The notes beneath the pieces are model-generated. The model did no database searches and was not told where the DNA came from. It worked only from the letters and a program-made list of their open reading frames with translations. The position numbers were made by a program, and so were the translations under genes. From Candidatus Gagatemarchaeum stordalenia (GTDB taxonomy: Archaea > Thermoproteota > Nitrososphaeria > Nitrososphaerales > Gagatemarchaeaceae), in contig PLUF01000069.1 of NCBI GenBank assembly GCA_003164815.1, forward strand, positions 1-64,000: DNA of 64,000 bases. Direction: 5' to 3'. Below, piece after piece: positions 2 through 18,310 of this stretch. Each line of letters begins with the position of its first letter. Positions within the stretch are counted from its first letter, which is position 1.

Positions 2-1057
2 AACACCGACATTCTGTGGGATCTTTACTCGATGACGGAACCTGGAAAGGAGCACGCGATATGTTCAGACACGGTGAAACAGCTAAACGACAGGGTCGAT
101 TGTGCATTCTACAATCGTGTTTACGTGCCGAGCGATACTCGGGGCAAAGTAGCCAGCGACTATCCTCTTGGACTCGGAAATCTTGCCAAGACGCTCTCGG
201 ATCTTAAGCTGATCGGGAATCCGAAAGACCAAAGAATCTCGAAAAGAACGTTCTGGAAGACAAATGCTGAAGAGACAACAACGAACGCAGTGAACAACAT
301 TCTTGAGCTCTACAGATACCTGGAGGCTAGGCTTGGAGAGGAAAGGTCGAATTGGTACTCGAGGTTCTTTCTTTCCAACAACGGATTCAATGTTGCGATG
401 CGACTTCTATCAGAAATCATTCAGAATGCCAAAGGGGGCGAATTCAACTTCAGCGTTCTCGACAGCATGCGGCTGGCAGATGGGTTACTCTTCTTTGTGG
501 ATAATGAAGATGAGAGCCCGTCGAGTCTCAAGACAACGACAAGCAGCGAGGGCGGCAGAGGAGATACCGCGGCTGAGCTAATCTTCGCGATTTGGTTGCA
601 TAATCAAGACTTCGCGGTTGACTTCCTTTCCGGAAGACGCGGTATCAAGTTCTTTCCAAAACTGAACGATCTCATCAAAGAGATAATATCAGACCTCAGA
701 AAACTCATAGACAAGGCTTTCGCAAAGGAACCTGACTGGTGGGACCGTTATGTCCCTGAGGATGTCAGACAATACGCTGCTGACCACAAGAGGACCTTGA
801 ATCAGACTGACTTGAAAGAAGAGCGACTATACTTCATCTCCGAGGGAGACTTGTTAAAAATAATCGATAAGAGATACAACGAATTCTTTTCGGCATTGCT
901 TCGAGAAAACTTCCGCGATCGGAATGAGTTCATGGCTCAAATTGGACTTTGGAAGAACACGAGAGACATAGATGGCCACGCAATCCCCATCACTCCCAAG
1001 CCGGCCGAGCTACGCGCGTTATACGACTTTCACGAGTCTATCCACCAAGAAAAGTAA
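2..1057 (+). CDS. HEPN-domain protein, 5' end cut by window edge
   Basis: The frame is open from base 2, so the N-terminus lies outside the window; the first internal ATG is at 32. Counting from that Met, the C-terminal part (about 265-320) reads like a Swt1-type HEPN domain: a helix with DLLKIIDKRYNEFF followed by R311-DIDG-H316, which matches the HEPN RNase signature R-x4-6-H. The middle part (FFLSNNGFNVAMRLL, about 112-126) resembles the segment before the C-terminus of DGQHR proteins, such as the 577-residue protein encoded just downstream on the other strand. The missing N-terminus may therefore carry a DGQHR domain; that is inference. HEPN domains in defence loci usually cut RNA. The gene is AT-rich compared with the bulk of the window and converges on the DGQHR gene with about 215 bp between them. 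Confidence 0.6.
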   Translation, partial: NTDILWDLYSMTEPGKEHAICSDTVKQLNDRVDCAFYNRVYVPSDTRGKVASDYPLGLGNLAKTLSDLKLIGNPKDQRISKRTFWKTNAEETTTNAVNNILELYRYLEARLGEERSNWYSRFFLSNNGFNVAMRLLSEIIQNAKGGEFNFSVLDSMRLADGLLFFVDNEDESPSSLKTTTSSEGGRGDTAAELIFAIWLHNQDFAVDFLSGRRGIKFFPKLNDLIKEIISDLRKLIDKAFAKEPDWWDRYVPEDVRQYAADHKRTLNQTDLKEERLYFISEGDLLKIIDKRYNEFFSALLRENFRDRNEFMAQIGLWKNTRDIDGHAIPITPKPAELRALYDFHESIHQEK

Positions 1058-1273
1058 GTCTTCTCCTTCTCAGTCTAGCAGTTATCTGTTGACGAGGCGG
1101 ATATCTGTTCCATTCAATGGAATCATTCCAACTTCGTCCTCCAAGTAGCGTGGCTCCTGCTCAGGTATGTGATTTTGTATAGCCCAGTTTCTCGGAGACG
1201 AATCTTACATTCGCCCAAGAACATTCATCCTTCTCTGAGAACATCGCGAGTGATTGCACGCCGAATCATCCAG

Positions 1274-3007
1274 CTACGCTGGATGCTGGACTTGCTTCGA
1301 ACTTGACTGATTCGCGTTTGCATAGGTAACTTGAATGATCGCTGGGAGCGCGCGGGCGCTAACGTCCAGTTTCAGCGGAGGAGAATCCAACTCAATGAAG
1401 TTTAGGGGGGTCTCAATAGTGTTGAGAACCTGGACCATCCCTCCTTGAGTCTGGCTGATGTACACTTCCGCTGTCGAGTATGCGTTTAGTGGACGAGGAA
1501 TCGCGGCACCTGAGAAGGGAGAGCGCGACTCCCATTGGAATTTCAGCTTCGGTTTGCCTGCTTTTCTCAGCGGATCTGCTCCCGAAGGGACTTGAATGAA
1601 TTGCACGGGGTCGGGTGGACCTTTGATCCAGCTATTGATCCACGGAGGTACCCTATCGGCCCCGATGGGATTTGGTGCTGTCTCGAAAATGTGCTGAAGG
1701 ATTCTAAGTAACATCTCTTTGTTCTTGTCGGGATTACTAAGACCGTTCCATGCAGGGTCGCTCCAGTCAATATTCTCTATGTACACGAATTCCGACTTAT
1801 AGTTCGCGAGATCAGGCGCAGCTCCCCTGTCAATCAGTCTCTTGGTTATTGTTGGGAATAACTTCAAAAAAACTTCGATAAGTCCTCTCTGCTGCAGCCA
1901 GCCAGTCGAAGATCTATTAGTAGACCAGTACTGATTTGACGTGCCTGACGGAGTTCCAGTACTCGCGGGCCATGTGAGAAGGAAGGACTCAAGGTAGTTC
2001 TGGAGCATCGAGACCGCAGTATCGAAATCGATCATTCCGTCAGGATTCTTCGCATCTTGAAAGACGCCGTTTGTTAGCCATTGTTCGACGAGTACCAAGA
2101 AATCATGAGCTTCTATGACATCTCCTCTGCGTTGTCTACCTGTTGCTTCAGGAAGTATAGTTATCCGGTCGTACCAACGGGAGTTTGACAGGGAACAAAG
2201 TTTGCAAACTATTTCGTAAGCTTTTCTGTTTCTTGTTCCCTTGGTGTTCTTTGATGGCGGAGTGGGGGGACTGATACTAAAGTCGGCTTCTGAAAGCGGC
2301 CCAATTCTCCCTCCGTGTAATTTGAAGGTGTAAAGAAGATAGATCTTGTGCAGTTCTGGCAAGTCAACGGCATAGGTGGTGATTTCTGTGAATATTTTTG
2401 CCATGTCTCCTATTGAGAACGATGACTCTGTAAGAACAACTGTAATGAGGTATTCGTCTTTCTGAGGACTCCCGGCCGCCGCAACGCCGCGAATTCTGTG
2501 CTGACCATCGATAATCATTCCAGGTCTGCCATCCCACCCACACATCGGACAGACATCGAATTTCTGTCCTGCTTGCTTCCCTTGGGGTACAAAGTTGCAA
2601 CTTGGATTCGGACACTTGTCTACGAACCAAGATACTGGAATGACGAATTTTACCCGATCATCTATCTCACTTACCCATTCGGGCTTTGGAGGAATAGACA
2701 CAACCGCACTGTTGATGATGAAGTTGAAAGGTTTCTGAAAGAACTCAGCGATAGCTGCAACCCGTCCTGGGTCAAGATCTCTCTGCCACTTATCCGAAGT
2801 GCCTGCGAGAACCCATGTGGCGATATCTCTATTGTCTTTGTCGAAAGGAATTGTTGGAACTTTGCATAACAGATCAAGATCCGAGGCCTTGGCTTTGACA
2901 ACATAGATCTTCTTTCCCTTCTGCAGAACTACCATTCCGTCAAATCTTATGGCAGAGGGACTGGAAGAAGAATAATGGGTTGACTTTGTCAGAACCTTCT
3001 GGCTCAT
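1274..3007 (-). CDS. DGQHR-domain protein with inserted zinc ribbon
   Basis: The 577-residue protein contains the diagnostic motif MIIDGQHRIRGV at about 165-175, with the following FTEIT...V segment typical of the DGQHR/DndB superfamily. These ParB/sulfiredoxin-fold proteins occur with phosphorothioate and 7-deazaguanine DNA-modification systems and other defence loci, where DndB acts as a regulator; no Dnd or Dpd partner is visible here. Just before the motif sits a four-cysteine ribbon (C132, C137, C153, C156), which could bind zinc. A C-terminal part of about 350 residues is of unknown role. The ATG start follows the HNH gene stop by 33 bp on the same strand, suggesting one operon of HNH nuclease then DGQHR protein. 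The family call is firm; the function is not known. Confidence 0.8.
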   Translation of the reverse strand: MSQKVLTKSTHYSSSSPSAIRFDGMVVLQKGKKIYVVKAKASDLDLLCKVPTIPFDKDNRDIATWVLAGTSDKWQRDLDPGRVAAIAEFFQKPFNFIINSAVVSIPPKPEWVSEIDDRVKFVIPVSWFVDKCPNPSCNFVPQGKQAGQKFDVCPMCGWDGRPGMIIDGQHRIRGVAAAGSPQKDEYLITVVLTESSFSIGDMAKIFTEITTYAVDLPELHKIYLLYTFKLHGGRIGPLSEADFSISPPTPPSKNTKGTRNRKAYEIVCKLCSLSNSRWYDRITILPEATGRQRRGDVIEAHDFLVLVEQWLTNGVFQDAKNPDGMIDFDTAVSMLQNYLESFLLTWPASTGTPSGTSNQYWSTNRSSTGWLQQRGLIEVFLKLFPTITKRLIDRGAAPDLANYKSEFVYIENIDWSDPAWNGLSNPDKNKEMLLRILQHIFETAPNPIGADRVPPWINSWIKGPPDPVQFIQVPSGADPLRKAGKPKLKFQWESRSPFSGAAIPRPLNAYSTAEVYISQTQGGMVQVLNTIETPLNFIELDSPPLKLDVSARALPAIIQVTYANANQSSSKQVQHPA

Positions 3008-3040
3008 TAGTAGTATTCAGGATACTTCGTCTATTTAACC

Positions 3041-3586
3041 TCACAATAACCAGAAATCGTCGAGCGCAAATGCAATATGCTGACCCTTCCAAAAAATGTT
3101 GTGATACCTGCAAAGTTTCTGTCCCAAACCTGCCTCGGCGAATCGCCCGGTCCTCGAAGTAGGGAAGATGTGATCGTCATCGAGCCTAGTAAATGGCTCG
3201 AACCTAGTACCTCTAAAGGTAGCTGACTCAACCCCTGGACAACCCATCACCCAATTGCACTTGTCTCCTGTGCTCGAGATCCTTGTTCTTGAATGCTTTT
3301 TGTCAAAAGCGTCGACGTAGATATCAACCAGGTCATCGGAATGTGTCAGCTTCACTTCGGCCGTTTCCATAGCACCTCTCAAAGAACTCTTAACGAGAAT
3401 CTTGAGTTTCCTACCAACCTCCTCGTCGGATTCGATCGAAAGAAGTGCTGAAGACACACTTGTTGACATTATCTGTTCAAGGATGATTCGAGAAAGCCCC
3501 GCGTAGATGGCCTCTCTGCTACTCCAAGGAAGAACTTCCGCAATCCTGATCATTCTCTCAAAGGCGAGCTCGTTTGGGCCTTTCAT
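3041..3586 (-). CDS. HNH endonuclease-like protein
   Basis: This 181-residue protein has a helical N-terminal half and a compact C-terminal half with the layout of a Cys-rich HNH nuclease: C110, C116, then D137-D138-H139 (DDDHIFPTS) and C159-xx-H162-N163 (CRYHNIFW). H139 would be the general base, N163 the HNH asparagine, and the Cys/His pairs a structural zinc site. HNH domains nick or cut DNA. It is the first gene of a minus-strand pair with the DGQHR gene. Its ATG lies only 10 bp from the divergent PIN gene start, so each promoter must lie inside the neighbouring coding sequence unless one start is wrong; Met12 (3553) is an alternative. Confidence 0.65.
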   Translation of the reverse strand: MKGPNELAFERMIRIAEVLPWSSREAIYAGLSRIILEQIMSTSVSSALLSIESDEEVGRKLKILVKSSLRGAMETAEVKLTHSDDLVDIYVDAFDKKHSRTRISSTGDKCNWVMGCPGVESATFRGTRFEPFTRLDDDHIFPTSRTGRFAEAGLGQKLCRYHNIFWKGQHIAFALDDFWLL

Positions 3587-3596
3587 GACTTCGTAA

Positions 3597-4667
3597 TTGT
3601 TGAATCACCTATTAGTTTCTTTACTGACCGGATCTCAGCAGACTTCAAGAGAAAAATCGAGGTTTGGAAAGGCATTTCAACGACACATCTCCACAGGAAT
3701 TGTGCACCGCCTCTGGGAGCGAAGCCAACTTGACAGCGAGATCAGAAGCTTGCAGAAACAGGTGTCCAGCATCAACCCCCAAGATGGAATCATATTGGAT
3801 ATCAAAGTCGCTGGCAATGTCGTGTTGAGCTACAACGCAAACAGTGAGATCATTCAAACCCGAGAAGATAACAAATTGATGGCAGAATGCACCCAAGTAC
3901 TGGATACAGCTGGGGCAGATGATTACTGGCTGAGTTACAATCCAGTCAACACCGGGACGTCGATGCAGAAGATGATTACTCCATCAAGTTGGAGCGAATG
4001 TAGACAATGGTTCAGATCGGTCGCGGTGCCAGAAACTGGTGGGGTCACCATCGTCCCTGATACGAATGTAATCATGAACCACTATTTGTCTAAAGTTATC
4101 TTCCCTATCGCCGATGAACTGATGTTTCATGACGTCCAAGTTGTGATTCCACGCACAGTCATCCTCGAGATTGAACGGCAAGGGAACCTTGAAGGCAAGA
4201 GCTTCAAGAAGAGAAAAGCGATCTTTGCGTGGAGCGAGTTACTTTGGCTCTTAGACAATGGAGCTCAAATTCTTAGCGAGCTTGATCCAAATATGTTGGA
4301 AGGATTCAGCTCTATAGCTGGATCAAGATTCGGGGATGCCCTGATTCGAAAGGAGATTCGTACCTACTTTGGGCAACCATTGATGAAAAATCAACCACGA
4401 GTATTATTCATTACCTGCGACTTGATGAATGCATTCGCAGCTTGTGCAGAACGCCTGGACACCCTCTACCTCTCAAGGACTGCTAGTTCTGAGCATCGCG
4501 GCGACTTAGGAAAGCTCGTGGACATAATTCTCTCAGCAGCAATCCTATGGGAAGAGATCGAAGTGGAGTTCAAGCAGCCGACAGGCATAACGTACAAGCT
4601 CTCCGGCATGTGGGAAGGAAAGAGCATTACTGACTGGCGGAACCAGTTGATCGAAGTAATGAACTGA
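3597..4667 (+). CDS. PIN-domain nuclease, large form
   Basis: The 356-residue protein has an N-terminal region of about 145 residues with a short coiled-coil-like stretch (DSEIRSLQKQ) and a PIN domain from about 150 to 300. The acidic PIN residues are all visible: D155 in VPDTNVIM, E191 in ILEIERQ, D247 in RFGDALIRKEI and D275 in ITCDLMNAF. PIN domains are Mg-dependent RNases; this one is longer than a VapC toxin (about 130 residues) and has no antitoxin gene in front, so it is more like the stand-alone PIN effectors of defence loci. The start used is TTG, the first after an in-frame TAA; GTG at 3702 (Val36) is an alternative that would leave room for a promoter. Confidence 0.75.
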   Translation: MLNHLLVSLLTGSQQTSREKSRFGKAFQRHISTGIVHRLWERSQLDSEIRSLQKQVSSINPQDGIILDIKVAGNVVLSYNANSEIIQTREDNKLMAECTQVLDTAGADDYWLSYNPVNTGTSMQKMITPSSWSECRQWFRSVAVPETGGVTIVPDTNVIMNHYLSKVIFPIADELMFHDVQVVIPRTVILEIERQGNLEGKSFKKRKAIFAWSELLWLLDNGAQILSELDPNMLEGFSSIAGSRFGDALIRKEIRTYFGQPLMKNQPRVLFITCDLMNAFAACAERLDTLYLSRTASSEHRGDLGKLVDIILSAAILWEEIEVEFKQPTGITYKLSGMWEGKSITDWRNQLIEVMN

Positions 4668-4727: not shown

Positions 4728-4985
4728 TCAAAGCGTCTGTTCTATCTGTTGTAGCATCGTTGCTACTCTCTTTCCCTTCTCACTCAGTCGAATCATCCTC
4801 CTGCGAGGTGCTTCATTCTCTCTCGATTCAGAAACCAAGCCCCTCACTGAGAGCCATCTCACTGAATTGTAGACGGCGCTGCCTCCTAATTTGGCAATCT
4901 TTGGGAGAGTCATGATTGGTATCTGTTCGTTCTTTAGGAGTGCCAGTAGGACTTTGGTTTCGGACTCCCTGAGTGGCAACTTCAC
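4728..4985 (-). CDS. Winged-helix transcriptional regulator
   Basis: A small DNA-binding protein of about 85 residues with a MarR/PadR-like winged helix: ESETKVLLALLKN (helix 1), TLPKIAKLGGSAVYNSVRWL (helices 2-3), then a wing (RRRMIRLSEKGKRVATML). Two GTG starts are possible, 4997 and 4985. I prefer 4985, because a TATA-like ACTAAATCC on the minus strand (5011-5019) lies 26-34 bases before it, the distance seen for leaderless genes in this window. It is divergent from the AbrB gene at 5084, and the TATCCGG operator lies between the two promoters, so it may repress itself, its neighbour or both. Confidence 0.65.
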   Translation of the reverse strand: MKLPLRESETKVLLALLKNEQIPIMTLPKIAKLGGSAVYNSVRWLSVRGLVSESRENEAPRRRMIRLSEKGKRVATMLQQIEQTL

Positions 4986-5018
4986 GCAAGGATGCACAGT
5001 GGCGATCTAAGGATTTAG

Positions 5019-5083: not shown

Positions 5084-5239
5084 ATGGAGCTCCCGTTCAC
5101 TGTGAGGGTACAGGCACTTGGGCGAGTGGCGATTCCAAAGGAGATCCGTGAGGCATTGGCGATAGCCGAAGGTGATCTCGTATCAGTGAGAATCCGCAAA
5201 GTTGCTCCTGTGAAGACTCGCCAACGGAAAGAACCCTGA
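5084..5239 (+). CDS. AbrB/SpoVT-type DNA-binding protein, 51 residues
   Basis: This short gene has the swapped-hairpin AbrB core: QALGRVAIPKEIREALAI (10-27) then EGDLVSVRIRKV (29-40), with the usual G-R-x-x-I-P-K-E-I-R signature. Such proteins are antitoxins or small repressors. A TATA-like CTAAATAC at 5053-5060 lies 24-31 bases before the ATG, consistent with a leaderless mRNA. No toxin follows; the next open stretch is a methyltransferase stump, so it is either an orphan antitoxin or a viral/plasmid repressor working with the divergent winged-helix protein. Confidence 0.65.
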   Translation: MELPFTVRVQALGRVAIPKEIREALAIAEGDLVSVRIRKVAPVKTRQRKEP

Positions 5240-6427: not shown

Positions 6428-7957
6428 TTAGGCTTTGGCGTGAGTCATGTACTTCTTGACAGTTTCGCTGCTGATCTTGTAGCCCGTGGATCTTGCGATT
6501 TCGAGGCAGGCTTTGCTGTAGACGGTGTTCAATAACAAGATGGGCCGAATTTGCTCGATGAACCAGTCGGGAAGTGGTTGTCGTTCTAGGAAGCGCTTCG
6601 CTGTTGCCATGGTCACCAGGTCGTCGTAGTAGTTGCTGTGGAGTCTCGGATTGAATGCAGGTAGCTTCAGGCCGTCCTCTGTTCCAAACAAGAGGATGTT
6701 GACCTTCTGCTCGTCCTGTCTTGGTATGATATCGAGAGTCCTGAGAAGTCCATCGAGAAGGGTTTCGTTAGGTGTTGCGACGATGATGACTTTGTCCGCT
6801 CCTGCGTTGACCCAGCCATCAGACTCTGCCAGACCCTGTAGGAAATGCACTTTGAAGCTCCGGGGCGCTTCGAGAAGCCAATTTGCTCTCATCGGATCAT
6901 AGGTCGTCAGTTCACCAGCCCTGTACCCCATCATCACTCGGAATATCCAAGCGAATAGAGGTGAGACCGGTGCGATCCATTGAAAGCATTCTGACTTACT
7001 GAATCTCTTGTCTGACACTGGTGCGTCCTTGACCCTGTGCATGTTGAGACCCAACGACGTGTTCGAGGTGAACGATGTGAACTCTCCGAACCGCTGGCTG
7101 TTGTTCTTCGCTTTTGAAAGAACTGCAGACACTTTCATGCTCGGGAACCTTTCCTGACTTCTCAGGCCTTTACCGCCGTCTCCAAGCATGAATCCCATGA
7201 AGAAACCGAGATGGTCTGTTCTGTCTCGAAGGAGTTCTTCTCTTGACGTGTACCCGTACTGGGTCATCAATTCGAAGCTTTCCTGGGTCGGTGTGAGTTG
7301 GTCAACCACAGAGATGACGTCGCTGATTTCGTCGATTTGCGTCGGCACTTGGATCCATGTCCTGTCTGGAGTTCCTCTGGGCTTGACTCGAAGAGGCAGC
7401 CACTTCCGTCCATCCGTAGGCGGTCCGAGGCGGTCATACTCTGCGCGAAGATGGGTCACGAACGACTGTTTCTTGCCCGACAGGTATTTCCTTACGTTGT
7501 TCACACCAAGGGTCCTCTGGATGTCAGAGTCTCGCATGCCTTGTTTCGAGAGGCTCAGCATCTTGATGAACTGCTGGTGCTTTGCAAGGTCGTCGTGGTC
7601 GTAGGTCGCTTCCCAGAAGTCATTCAGTATGGGTTCTACAGATTCGTCTATCCAGTGGTATGGCGGCCAACAAACTCCTTCTCTAATCTCCGGGTTCGTC
7701 GATTGGCTGACTTCATGATTCACTGGGTCGAATGATTGGGTATGTTCGGTTGCTTCCATTACTACTGATTCGTGCGAAGGTATTTCGTCACCAATGTCGT
7801 CGTCAGAACATGTTGTCGGATTGGTTTCGTCAGTTTGGGATCCGGTATCATTTCGGGCCGAAAAAGATGGCTCTACGTGAGGGACCGGAGCAGGCGGGCA
7901 TGAGGCACGTATTCCCAGCTTGTGTGTCTCAGGTATGGATGAATTATCTTCGTCCAT
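6428..7957 (-). CDS. Free-standing LAGLIDADG homing endonuclease-like protein
   Basis: Both motifs of a single-chain LAGLIDADG enzyme are present in this 509-residue protein: LGFFMGFMLGDGG at 250-262 and HFLQGLAESDGWV at 371-383, each ending in the Asp that binds the catalytic metal. An acidic, disordered N-terminal tail (1-120) is followed by a helix-turn-helix-like segment (SKQGMRDSDIQRTLGV, 137-152), and the last 30 residues look like another HTH (ACLEIARSTGYKISSETVKK). The HTH parts suggest sequence-specific binding or use as a regulator. It is not inside another gene or intein, so it is a stand-alone copy. It may have lost mobility; the active-site Asp residues are kept. Confidence 0.75.
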   Translation of the reverse strand: MDEDNSSIPETHKLGIRASCPPAPVPHVEPSFSARNDTGSQTDETNPTTCSDDDIGDEIPSHESVVMEATEHTQSFDPVNHEVSQSTNPEIREGVCWPPYHWIDESVEPILNDFWEATYDHDDLAKHQQFIKMLSLSKQGMRDSDIQRTLGVNNVRKYLSGKKQSFVTHLRAEYDRLGPPTDGRKWLPLRVKPRGTPDRTWIQVPTQIDEISDVISVVDQLTPTQESFELMTQYGYTSREELLRDRTDHLGFFMGFMLGDGGKGLRSQERFPSMKVSAVLSKAKNNSQRFGEFTSFTSNTSLGLNMHRVKDAPVSDKRFSKSECFQWIAPVSPLFAWIFRVMMGYRAGELTTYDPMRANWLLEAPRSFKVHFLQGLAESDGWVNAGADKVIIVATPNETLLDGLLRTLDIIPRQDEQKVNILLFGTEDGLKLPAFNPRLHSNYYDDLVTMATAKRFLERQPLPDWFIEQIRPILLLNTVYSKACLEIARSTGYKISSETVKKYMTHAKA

Positions 7958-16807: not shown

Positions 16808-17000
16808 TGAGGCGATGGTGCGCGTCTCGACACCTGAGCCGGTCTCAACGATCAAGGTGAAGGTCTCTTAGTAGGCTCTTCGAGACGTATGGCTTCGCTC
16901 CTAGAGGTGCACAATCGAGCCGAGCGCACGGCCGCAACCAAAGCAGGCCGCTTGGCCGGCGGGAAGCTGCTGGCGAAGCGTCTCCACTTGTGGTCGCCCT
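16808..17000 (+). repeat. Dispersed repeat: HerA 3' tail, copy 2
   Basis: Bases 16814-16869 encode MVRVSTPEPVSTIKVKVS and a stop, matching the C-terminus of the HerA pseudogene at 13789. The next bases (TAGGCTCTTCGAGAC ... CAATCGAGC) match the repeat at 23104 for roughly another 70 bases, and GTGGTCGCC-CTCC near 16993 still matches after a gap. No other part of the ATPase is present. Confidence 0.7.
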
Positions 17001-17003
17001 CCT

Positions 17004-17399
17004 CTACATCTCTTCGTGGATGCGCTCCGCTTCGACCCTTATCAGCACCCGCGGGTCCTTTGGGGTCCGGTCCTCGTAGGGGTAGGGCTTCCCAAGGTAC
17101 TTCATGCTCATCCTGTCGATGTGCTCCTCCGCCCCCTCCTCCGTGATTTCGATGGCCTTTCCACGTATCGAGACGTTCGAGTACGGGTTGCCCTGGTCGA
17201 AGACGGTGATCGCGACCCGCTGGTCTCTCCTGAGGTTCTTGGTGCGCTGCCTGCTTCTGGTCGTGTTGAGTATGATGGTGTCCCCTTCACGGTCTATCCA
17301 GAGAGGTGCCACCTGAGGTGAGCCGTCCTGCATCAGCGTCGTCACGCTCCCGAAGTTCTTCCCGTCGATGAGCTCCTTCGCCTTGGTAGACAATCTCAT
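17004..17399 (-). CDS. PPOX-class F420/FMN-dependent oxidoreductase
   Basis: A 131-residue split-barrel protein of the pyridoxamine-phosphate-oxidase fold: FGSVTTLMQDGSPQVAPLWI, then DTIILNTTRSRQRTKNLRR, which in this family binds the flavin-like cofactor phosphate. It is like the small F420-dependent enzymes of archaea and actinobacteria that reduce quinones or other substrates, and it has a paralogue at 43473. The length is typical. It stands alone, and its 3' end abuts the HerA tail repeat. Confidence 0.75.
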   Translation of the reverse strand: MRLSTKAKELIDGKNFGSVTTLMQDGSPQVAPLWIDREGDTIILNTTRSRQRTKNLRRDQRVAITVFDQGNPYSNVSIRGKAIEITEEGAEEHIDRMSMKYLGKPYPYEDRTPKDPRVLIRVEAERIHEEM

Positions 17400-17569
17400 G
17401 GCGGCCGTGGTTGGGGATGATGAAGCTAAATCAGTTGAATAAGAGAGTTGGAACCCTCTCGCCCCTCTTTACTGGGTGCCCGTGATTGGCTGAACGTGTA
17501 TCTCTTCGCCGTTACCAATCTGACGCGTCGAGAAAGCGACTGCCGCGCGCCCTGAGGAGGCGACAGGCT

Positions 17570-18310
17570 CTATGTTACCTTCGCACCGCAGGACCGACAG
17601 AAGGTAGCTCCTGCGTCAAGCGCGCTGCCGCAGTTACCACAGTAAATCTTCCCACCTGCCTGCGCAGACGACGCTGGAGGGACGGCGGGGGCCGCGGGTA
17701 GCGCCTGGCCGGCCATCGAAGGCGTCTTCTTGCGCCTGCGCCACAGGAAGAGGAGAAGGACGAGGATTATGATCACGACCAGAGCGATGATCCAGTCGTA
17801 GTTGGCGCCCCCGGCCGCGATGGGGTTGCCTGACACGTCATAGGCCTGGGCGAAGAATTCGTTTATGGACACGCCGGCCGCGGTGTTTGTGCACTCGGAG
17901 GGAATGGTGCTGGCCACGCTATCGGAGCCATACGTCGCGCCGCCCTGGGTGTCAGTGCAGCTTGCGAGGACCACGCCGCCAGAGGTGGAGGTCTCCGTGA
18001 TGGTGCCCGTTGGGGGCGTGCTGCCCGTGCAGGGGATGGCGCCGATTCCCGGTCCCCAGATCCAGGTCGCTCCTGCCCCGGACCCGCCGAAGGACCCGCA
18101 GTCGTTGGTGTTGGTCCAGGTGGTGTTCACGTTGTTGAAGGTGTAGCCGCTGGACGTCAGATACTCGATGACCGACGTATACTGGGTTGACGAAGCGTTC
18201 CCGGCGTCCTGGGCGTGCGCCGCGTGCGCGGAGAGTGCAAGCACGAGAATGCTGAGAGCGACAACGAGAGATAGCGGACTAAGGGCCGGCTGACCTGCGA
18301 CTGTTCTCAC
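17570..18310 (-). CDS. Secreted-anchored protein with cytosolic zinc ribbon
   Basis: This 246-residue protein has a signal peptide (LSLVVALSILVLALSAHAAHA), an extracellular domain (about 35-165) with four cysteines likely in two disulfides, one membrane span (WIIALVVIIILVLLLFLW), a basic stop-transfer RRRKK, a Pro/Ala linker and a C-terminal double CxxC ribbon (CGNCGSALDAGATFCRSCG). The layout suggests a sensor or scaffold that links an outside domain to an inside zinc ribbon. Similar ribbons end or begin membrane proteins at 21173 (detached), 45957 and 56871. Function unknown. Confidence 0.75.
   Translation of the reverse strand: MRTVAGQPALSPLSLVVALSILVLALSAHAAHAQDAGNASSTQYTSVIEYLTSSGYTFNNVNTTWTNTNDCGSFGGSGAGATWIWGPGIGAIPCTGSTPPTGTITETSTSGGVVLASCTDTQGGATYGSDSVASTIPSECTNTAAGVSINEFFAQAYDVSGNPIAAGGANYDWIIALVVIIILVLLLFLWRRRKKTPSMAGQALPAAPAVPPASSAQAGGKIYCGNCGSALDAGATFCRSCGAKVT

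Follow-up and report, generated by a model that had tools for sequence, protein, structure and literature searches.

A DGQHR–HEPN protein gene divided between two contigs of Candidatus Gagatemarchaeum stordalenia, its unusual neighbours, and the DNA-modification genes that accompany its family

The window analyzed here is a 64,000-nucleotide stretch, bases 1-64,000 of contig C7, of the draft metagenome-assembled genome of Candidatus Gagatemarchaeum stordalenia (2.84 Mb, 115 contigs, 96% complete, 5% contamination). The first gene of the window turned out to be the C-terminal half of a 712-aa protein in which an N-terminal PD-(D/E)xK-like (REase-like) domain, a DGQHR/ParB-Srx core and a Swt1-type HEPN domain are joined. 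The locus is a variant of the already known ParB–HEPN fusion, and the pairings of this protein family with partner genes appear undescribed in the literature searched. An earlier note, made from the sequence of positions 2 to 4,667, had proposed a new defence system of four genes, namely HEPN, DGQHR, HNH and PIN genes. The open reading frames lie where that note placed them, and the locus is of a defence type, as the DGQHR–HEPN family adjoins DNA-modification genes and rides on plasmids and prophage-like contigs. The four-gene neighbourhood, however, does not recur, and by the criterion that the note itself had set this tells against a four-gene system. Around the DGQHR–HEPN protein it is instead DNA methylases or radical-SAM modules that recur.

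Base 1 of the window is a contig end. The reading frame at 2-1057 (+) encodes 351 aa, assigned by contig-end overlap, spanning homologues and a family profile as the C-terminal part of the 712-aa protein. A profile search of the same genome found one further DGQHR copy, which is cut short by the end of contig C29; it encodes the N-terminal 361 aa, outside the window (G000:C29 36966-38049, which is 16967-18050 of locus L027). C29 ends in ...GCTGTTA and C7 begins with TAACACC, so that the two overlap by the two bases TA with the frame kept, and the in-frame junction peptide runs from ...FLSINKKQTAV on C29 into NTDILWDLY... on C7. The uninterrupted sequence expected over the join is INKKQTAVNTDILWDLY. 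Homologues in L032, L033 and L037 cover both halves of the split gene; the C29 half aligns up to residue 315 of the L032 protein and the window half, from its residue 3, begins at residue 318, that is, with zero residues missing. When compared with a profile built from 78 relatives, the joined protein aligned over residues 10-708 with an hhalign probability of 100 (E 2e-53). From these alignments we regard it as established that window 2-1057 and the C29 end form one gene, the join having been deduced from homology and not read across. Thus, of the HEPN gene reported in the earlier note, the RxxxxH motif stands and is conserved, but it does not belong to a separate gene. Because the supposed HEPN gene is half of another DGQHR protein, the locus holds two DGQHR proteins.

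The base composition agrees with the AT-richness that had been noted. The G+C content is 0.46-0.50 in the first 5 kb of the window versus about 0.60 in the rest, and the low G+C carries on into C29, the last kilobase of which is at 0.48, preceded by 0.55 and about 0.62. This continuous low-G+C stretch across the junction suggests a single acquisition. On C29, the 56-nt tail of a gene for Tes (tetraether lipid synthase; L027 16426-16481) is repeated with 80% identity 414 nt downstream, at 16840-16895, just before the DGQHR–HEPN gene, and may be an old insertion scar. A further copy of this tail marking the far end of the island was not found in the window.

The domains of the joined protein were compared with those of its relatives. 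DGQHR is present in 78 of 78 relatives, YQR and FxxIN are also conserved, and all three occur in the joined protein. The HEPN catalytic motif RxxxxH (RDIDGH; R682/H687 of the joined protein) lies at 962-979 (+); among relatives the Arg is kept in 75 of 76 and the His in 75 of 77. The HEPN part (window 2-1054) matches PADLOC PDC-M34B (E 7e-6), and the relatives L037 and L057 match PF18731 HEPN_Swt1. The PD-(D/E)xK-like domain was recognized through a Card1_endonuc match in the relative L083 (E 2e-4). The domain itself still aligns in the joined protein; the catalytic acid, which is Asp in 75 of 75 relatives, is replaced by Lys, and the EC(K) motif of the relatives reads DAF. Judged by these residues, the REase of the joined protein is presumed dead, perhaps with DNA binding left. 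The Lys position of the motif already varies (T, F, H, A) within the archaeal clade to which the protein belongs, and an ordinary nuclease may never have been there. The nearest relative shares only 25% identity. The joined protein falls together with L074 and the archaeal-type clade in the tree, on a branch of length 2.13, and since the branches are long the placement is tentative.

Plasmid pNL1 of Novosphingobium aromaticivorans encodes a 769-aa DGQHR–HEPN protein which, from the species, we take to be Saro_3948. A ParB–HEPN fusion with that designation was listed in the 2013 survey of the HEPN superfamily, as was a Swt1-HEPN/DUF262/HNH fusion (PMC3710099). The likeness to the Saro_3948 type lies in a DGQHR/ParB-Srx core followed by a Swt1-type HEPN domain with RxxxxH. 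The difference is that the joined protein has no REase catalytic acid and is not accompanied by the radical-SAM/GHKL/second-DGQHR module of the pNL1 type. The N-terminal PD-(D/E)xK nuclease (D…ExK/ECK) is a trait of the relatives that lies outside the 2013 definition of the ParB–HEPN fusion. We therefore class the joined protein, on its residues, as a ParB–HEPN fusion with a presumably dead REase.

When 84,980 species genomes were scanned with the profile, at least 198 genome loci of the DGQHR–HEPN family came to light in archaea and many bacterial phyla, from Nanoarchaeota to Pseudomonadota, and further members were found on plasmids, a phage and prophage-like viral contigs. Among the confirmed relatives, 80 of the 198 were listed, and the neighbourhood counts refer to 82 non-redundant loci. 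A D12 adenine methylase gene is a near neighbour in 36 of these 82 loci, which are spread over many phyla (L036, L067, L071-L073, L076-L078 and 28 others); of 37 D12 copies, 35 immediately adjoin the family gene in the same orientation (29 at +1 and 6 at -1). Genes with methylase motifs make up 34 of 160 near neighbours versus 2 of 480 distant ones. Other loci of the family carry C5 or N4/N6 methylases, or DpnI. From gene order and motifs, the DGQHR–HEPN and D12 pair is in our view a candidate for a restriction-modification system that includes its own RNase. The present locus shares with these pairs the same REase–DGQHR–HEPN protein, but it has no methylase in the first genes of the window or on C29, and no match to D12 (PF02086) was found in the whole genome.

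In 12 of the 82 loci, and also on plasmids, the gene for the REase–DGQHR–HEPN protein has one for a radical-SAM enzyme beside it (L091, L095, L100, L122, L126, L127 and L128; also L065, L066, L075, L079, L083, L087 and L093). A GHKL ATPase (HATPase_c_3) often follows, and six loci have a second, DndB-like gene (VDCQHR) in front. The block is also present on pNL1 and an Agrobacterium plasmid, where it lies beside a PIN-like gene. The block has the look of a module for modifying DNA or nucleotides that has yet to be described. For neither the methylase nor the radical-SAM pairing did the literature searched yield a description as a system. Most members of the archaeal-type clade have no fixed partner, and a few are near DpnI-type genes. 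DpnI-family genes or fragments were seen at L053 12048-12815, L074 4435-5163, L057 6944-7393 and L062 3290-3538.

The second DGQHR protein of the locus, of 577 aa, is encoded at 1274-3007 (-), as the earlier note had it. It is supported by TIGR03187 (E 8e-12, with 45.5 bits against a cut-off of 58.85, and so below threshold) and by hhalign, which aligns its residues 72-392 to the DGQHR–HEPN family (probability 95, E 2e-8). A Cys4 zinc-ribbon-like insert (CPNPSC…CPMCGW) immediately precedes IIDGQHRIRG, and the FxxIN motif reads IFTEIT, with Thr replacing the conserved Asn. The protein is an orphan: several hundred archaeal genomes, two collection scans, plasmids and phages gave no real relative, and three matches at E 0.002-0.01 proved to be out-of-frame chance matches. 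Its AF2 model (pLDDT 45) was too poor for a structure search.

The 181-aa gene at 3041-3586 (-) lies 33 bp upstream of the 577-aa gene on the same strand, so that the operon arrangement that had been described holds. The domain assignment made with it is backed by motif only: the protein has C-x5-C … DDDHIFP … LCRYHN, and in Pfam it reaches PF14279 HNH_5 at no better than E 0.14. The spaced motif arose in 0 of 200,000 shuffles and was present in one other of 2,628 compared proteins, apparently an ordinary HNH protein. We thus regard the product, by its motif, as a probable HNH (His-Me finger) endonuclease. Its AF2 model was unusable (pLDDT 38). As far as plasmids, phages, viral contigs and archaeal genomes were searched, there was no credible homologue. 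The sequences matched in L134 and L135 (E 0.006-0.009) are ABC-transporter-type solute-binding proteins, that in L133 (E 0.006-0.009) is another unrelated long ORF, and that in L132 (E 1e-4) contains two stops and is overlapped by a better ORF on the reverse strand.

The PIN gene at 3597-4667 (+) is divergent from the HNH gene, as had been reported, and encodes up to 356 aa. The product matches PF13638 PIN_4 (E 4.5e-4) and has all four acidic positions intact (PDTN / E / FGD / TCD). Its start is uncertain, since TTG 3597 sits 10 bp from the opposing ATG, and a start at ATG 3879 would give 262 aa. A PADLOC match to CARF_m1--CARF_PIN (E 9e-8) covers residues 126-355, which are the PIN part, and no Pfam CARF match was found at E up to 1. 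A single weak relative was detected (E 6e-4); plasmids and viral contigs gave none, and the PIN_8 protein encoded next to DGQHR genes on plasmids, considered as a relative, is without similarity. Just to the right of the PIN gene, a short gene for a TrmB-like winged-helix protein (4728-4997, -) is followed by a MazE/AbrB-like gene of 51 aa (5084-5239, +), and L032 has a TrmB-like relative about 4.7 kb from its DGQHR–HEPN gene. Farther on, in a stretch of intermediate G+C past the locus, 6428-7957 (-) encodes a free-standing protein of 509 aa that has a LAGLIDADG_3-like domain (E 0.005) and is possibly a homing endonuclease.

The locus was also compared with known systems that combine such domains. 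HNH, HEPN and PIN genes next to Dnd modules have been described (PMC10853773), and a DGQQR NTPase domain gates an HNH nuclease in SspE (PMC13251355) and in DndI (PMC11662687); for GmrSD, a DGQQR-type control of the nuclease has been proposed (PMC4619093). The locus resembles these three in combining a ParB/Srx DGQ[QH]R domain with HNH, here in adjacent co-directional genes like a split GmrS and GmrD. It differs in that no DUF262 (PF03235) or DUF1524 was detected in Pfam, the motif is DGQHR and not DGQQR, a zinc-ribbon insert is present and the HNH gene comes first. With DndB (PF14072) and DpdB the likeness is the DGQHR domain, with weak profile matches (E 0.03 for DndB and 0.01-0.02 for DpdB); the scores are, however, far under the equivalog cut-offs, and the flanking 38 kb lack DndACDE, SspABCD and DpdA/C genes. 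That flank, to the left of base 1 on C29, carries the housekeeping genes Tes, XdhC/TusA-like, DEAD-box helicase and QueC. PADLOC matches to DpdF, BrxH and QueC in it are due to the DEAD-box RNA helicase and to that QueC, a housekeeping gene at a distance of 35 kb. Neither the 38 kb of C29 nor the window flank yielded a dnd or dpd modification gene, and DndC was absent from the whole genome as well, which bears out the earlier view that the locus stands apart from Dnd and Dpd. Assignment to Dnd, Dpd or GmrSD was considered and dropped.

We lean, by a modest degree, towards a restriction-type, probably abortive, anti-invader locus in which the DGQHR–HNH pair would work like GmrSD or SspE. The DGQHR domain would be a module of the NTPase type, reading DNA state and controlling both nuclease ends. 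The adjacency of the family to DNA methylases suggests the reading of DNA state, and the licensing of the nuclease ends is suggested by analogy with the DGQQR domains of SspE and DndI and with the proposal for GmrSD. The HEPN RNase of the joined protein, with its active site kept, would cut RNA in the infected cell, that is, cause abortive infection. The 577-aa and HNH proteins may form, by analogy with GmrS plus GmrD, SspE or DndI, a split pair of sensor/NTPase and DNA-nicking enzyme, and this pair could supply the DNA cutting lost by the REase. The divergent PIN RNase, the weakest part of the proposal, may be an accessory or an unrelated toxin-type gene. A type IV-like reading of modified or otherwise foreign DNA is likelier than self-marking, as neither a D12 methylase nor DndC was found in the genome. 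A more specific form would be a new composite system in which a split, zinc-ribbon-bearing DGQHR plus HNH pair and a PIN RNase complement a DGQHR–HEPN protein deprived of its own DNA nuclease, the two DGQHR sensors licensing DNA and RNA cutting separately against the same invader; this is unlikely in our estimate.

It counts against the anti-invader locus as we propose it that neither the 577-aa DGQHR gene nor the HNH or PIN gene is tied by conserved linkage to the HEPN protein or to either of the others. Also weighing against it are the motif-only HNH call, the Thr in the FxxIN motif of the 577-aa protein, the Lys position of the REase motif that already varies in the clade, and the draft assembly with its deduced join. 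For the 577-aa, HNH and PIN genes there is no credible homologue, so the set of four does not recur as a neighbourhood; homologues of the HNH and PIN genes occur in 0 of the 82 DGQHR–HEPN loci within up to 10 kb on each side. The genes might thus be unrelated neighbours in a defence island, namely a solitary DGQHR–HEPN gene, an orphan HNH–DGQHR unit inserted by chance and a PIN toxin-type gene. Besides the lack of recurrence, this agrees with the archaeal-type clade, mostly without a fixed partner, and with the convergent orientation of the two units, in which about 200 bp separate the HEPN stop from the 577-aa DGQHR stop. Against it stand the unbroken low G+C, suggestive of one acquisition, and the paired DGQHR-type proteins of pNL1, the Agrobacterium plasmid and six genome loci, the second protein there being of a different subfamily. 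Taken comprehensively, we find this arrangement rather doubtful, if the strongest of the rivals.

The association of the family with D12, C5 and N4/N6 methylases would also fit restriction-modification with the methylase encoded at another place in the genome, or hidden in a gap of the assembly, and with DNA that lacks the host mark as the target of the DGQHR–HEPN protein. We judge this quite improbable. The genome is 96% complete and has no methylase of the D12 class, the class covered by the genome-wide search, and the catalytic acid of the REase is lost. DpnI-like enzymes cut methylated DNA, and it is near such enzymes that the nearest relatives are found. That the locus is a decaying remnant, with a dead REase, orphan partners and DGQHR proteins that are regulatory (as proposed for DndB) or functionless, is very improbable: the long branch and the lost REase residues would fit, but every frame is open and of full length, and the DGQHR, YQR and HEPN Arg/His residues, which decay would not spare, are intact, as are the PIN acids.

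DGQHR proteins other than those of Dnd and Dpd are for the most part unassigned. The window copy suggests that the DNase part of the joined protein can go while the RNase stays. For the family as a whole, the recurring partners of the REase–DGQHR–HEPN protein are DNA-modifying genes, and this points to a directly testable class of restriction systems that carry an RNase of their own.
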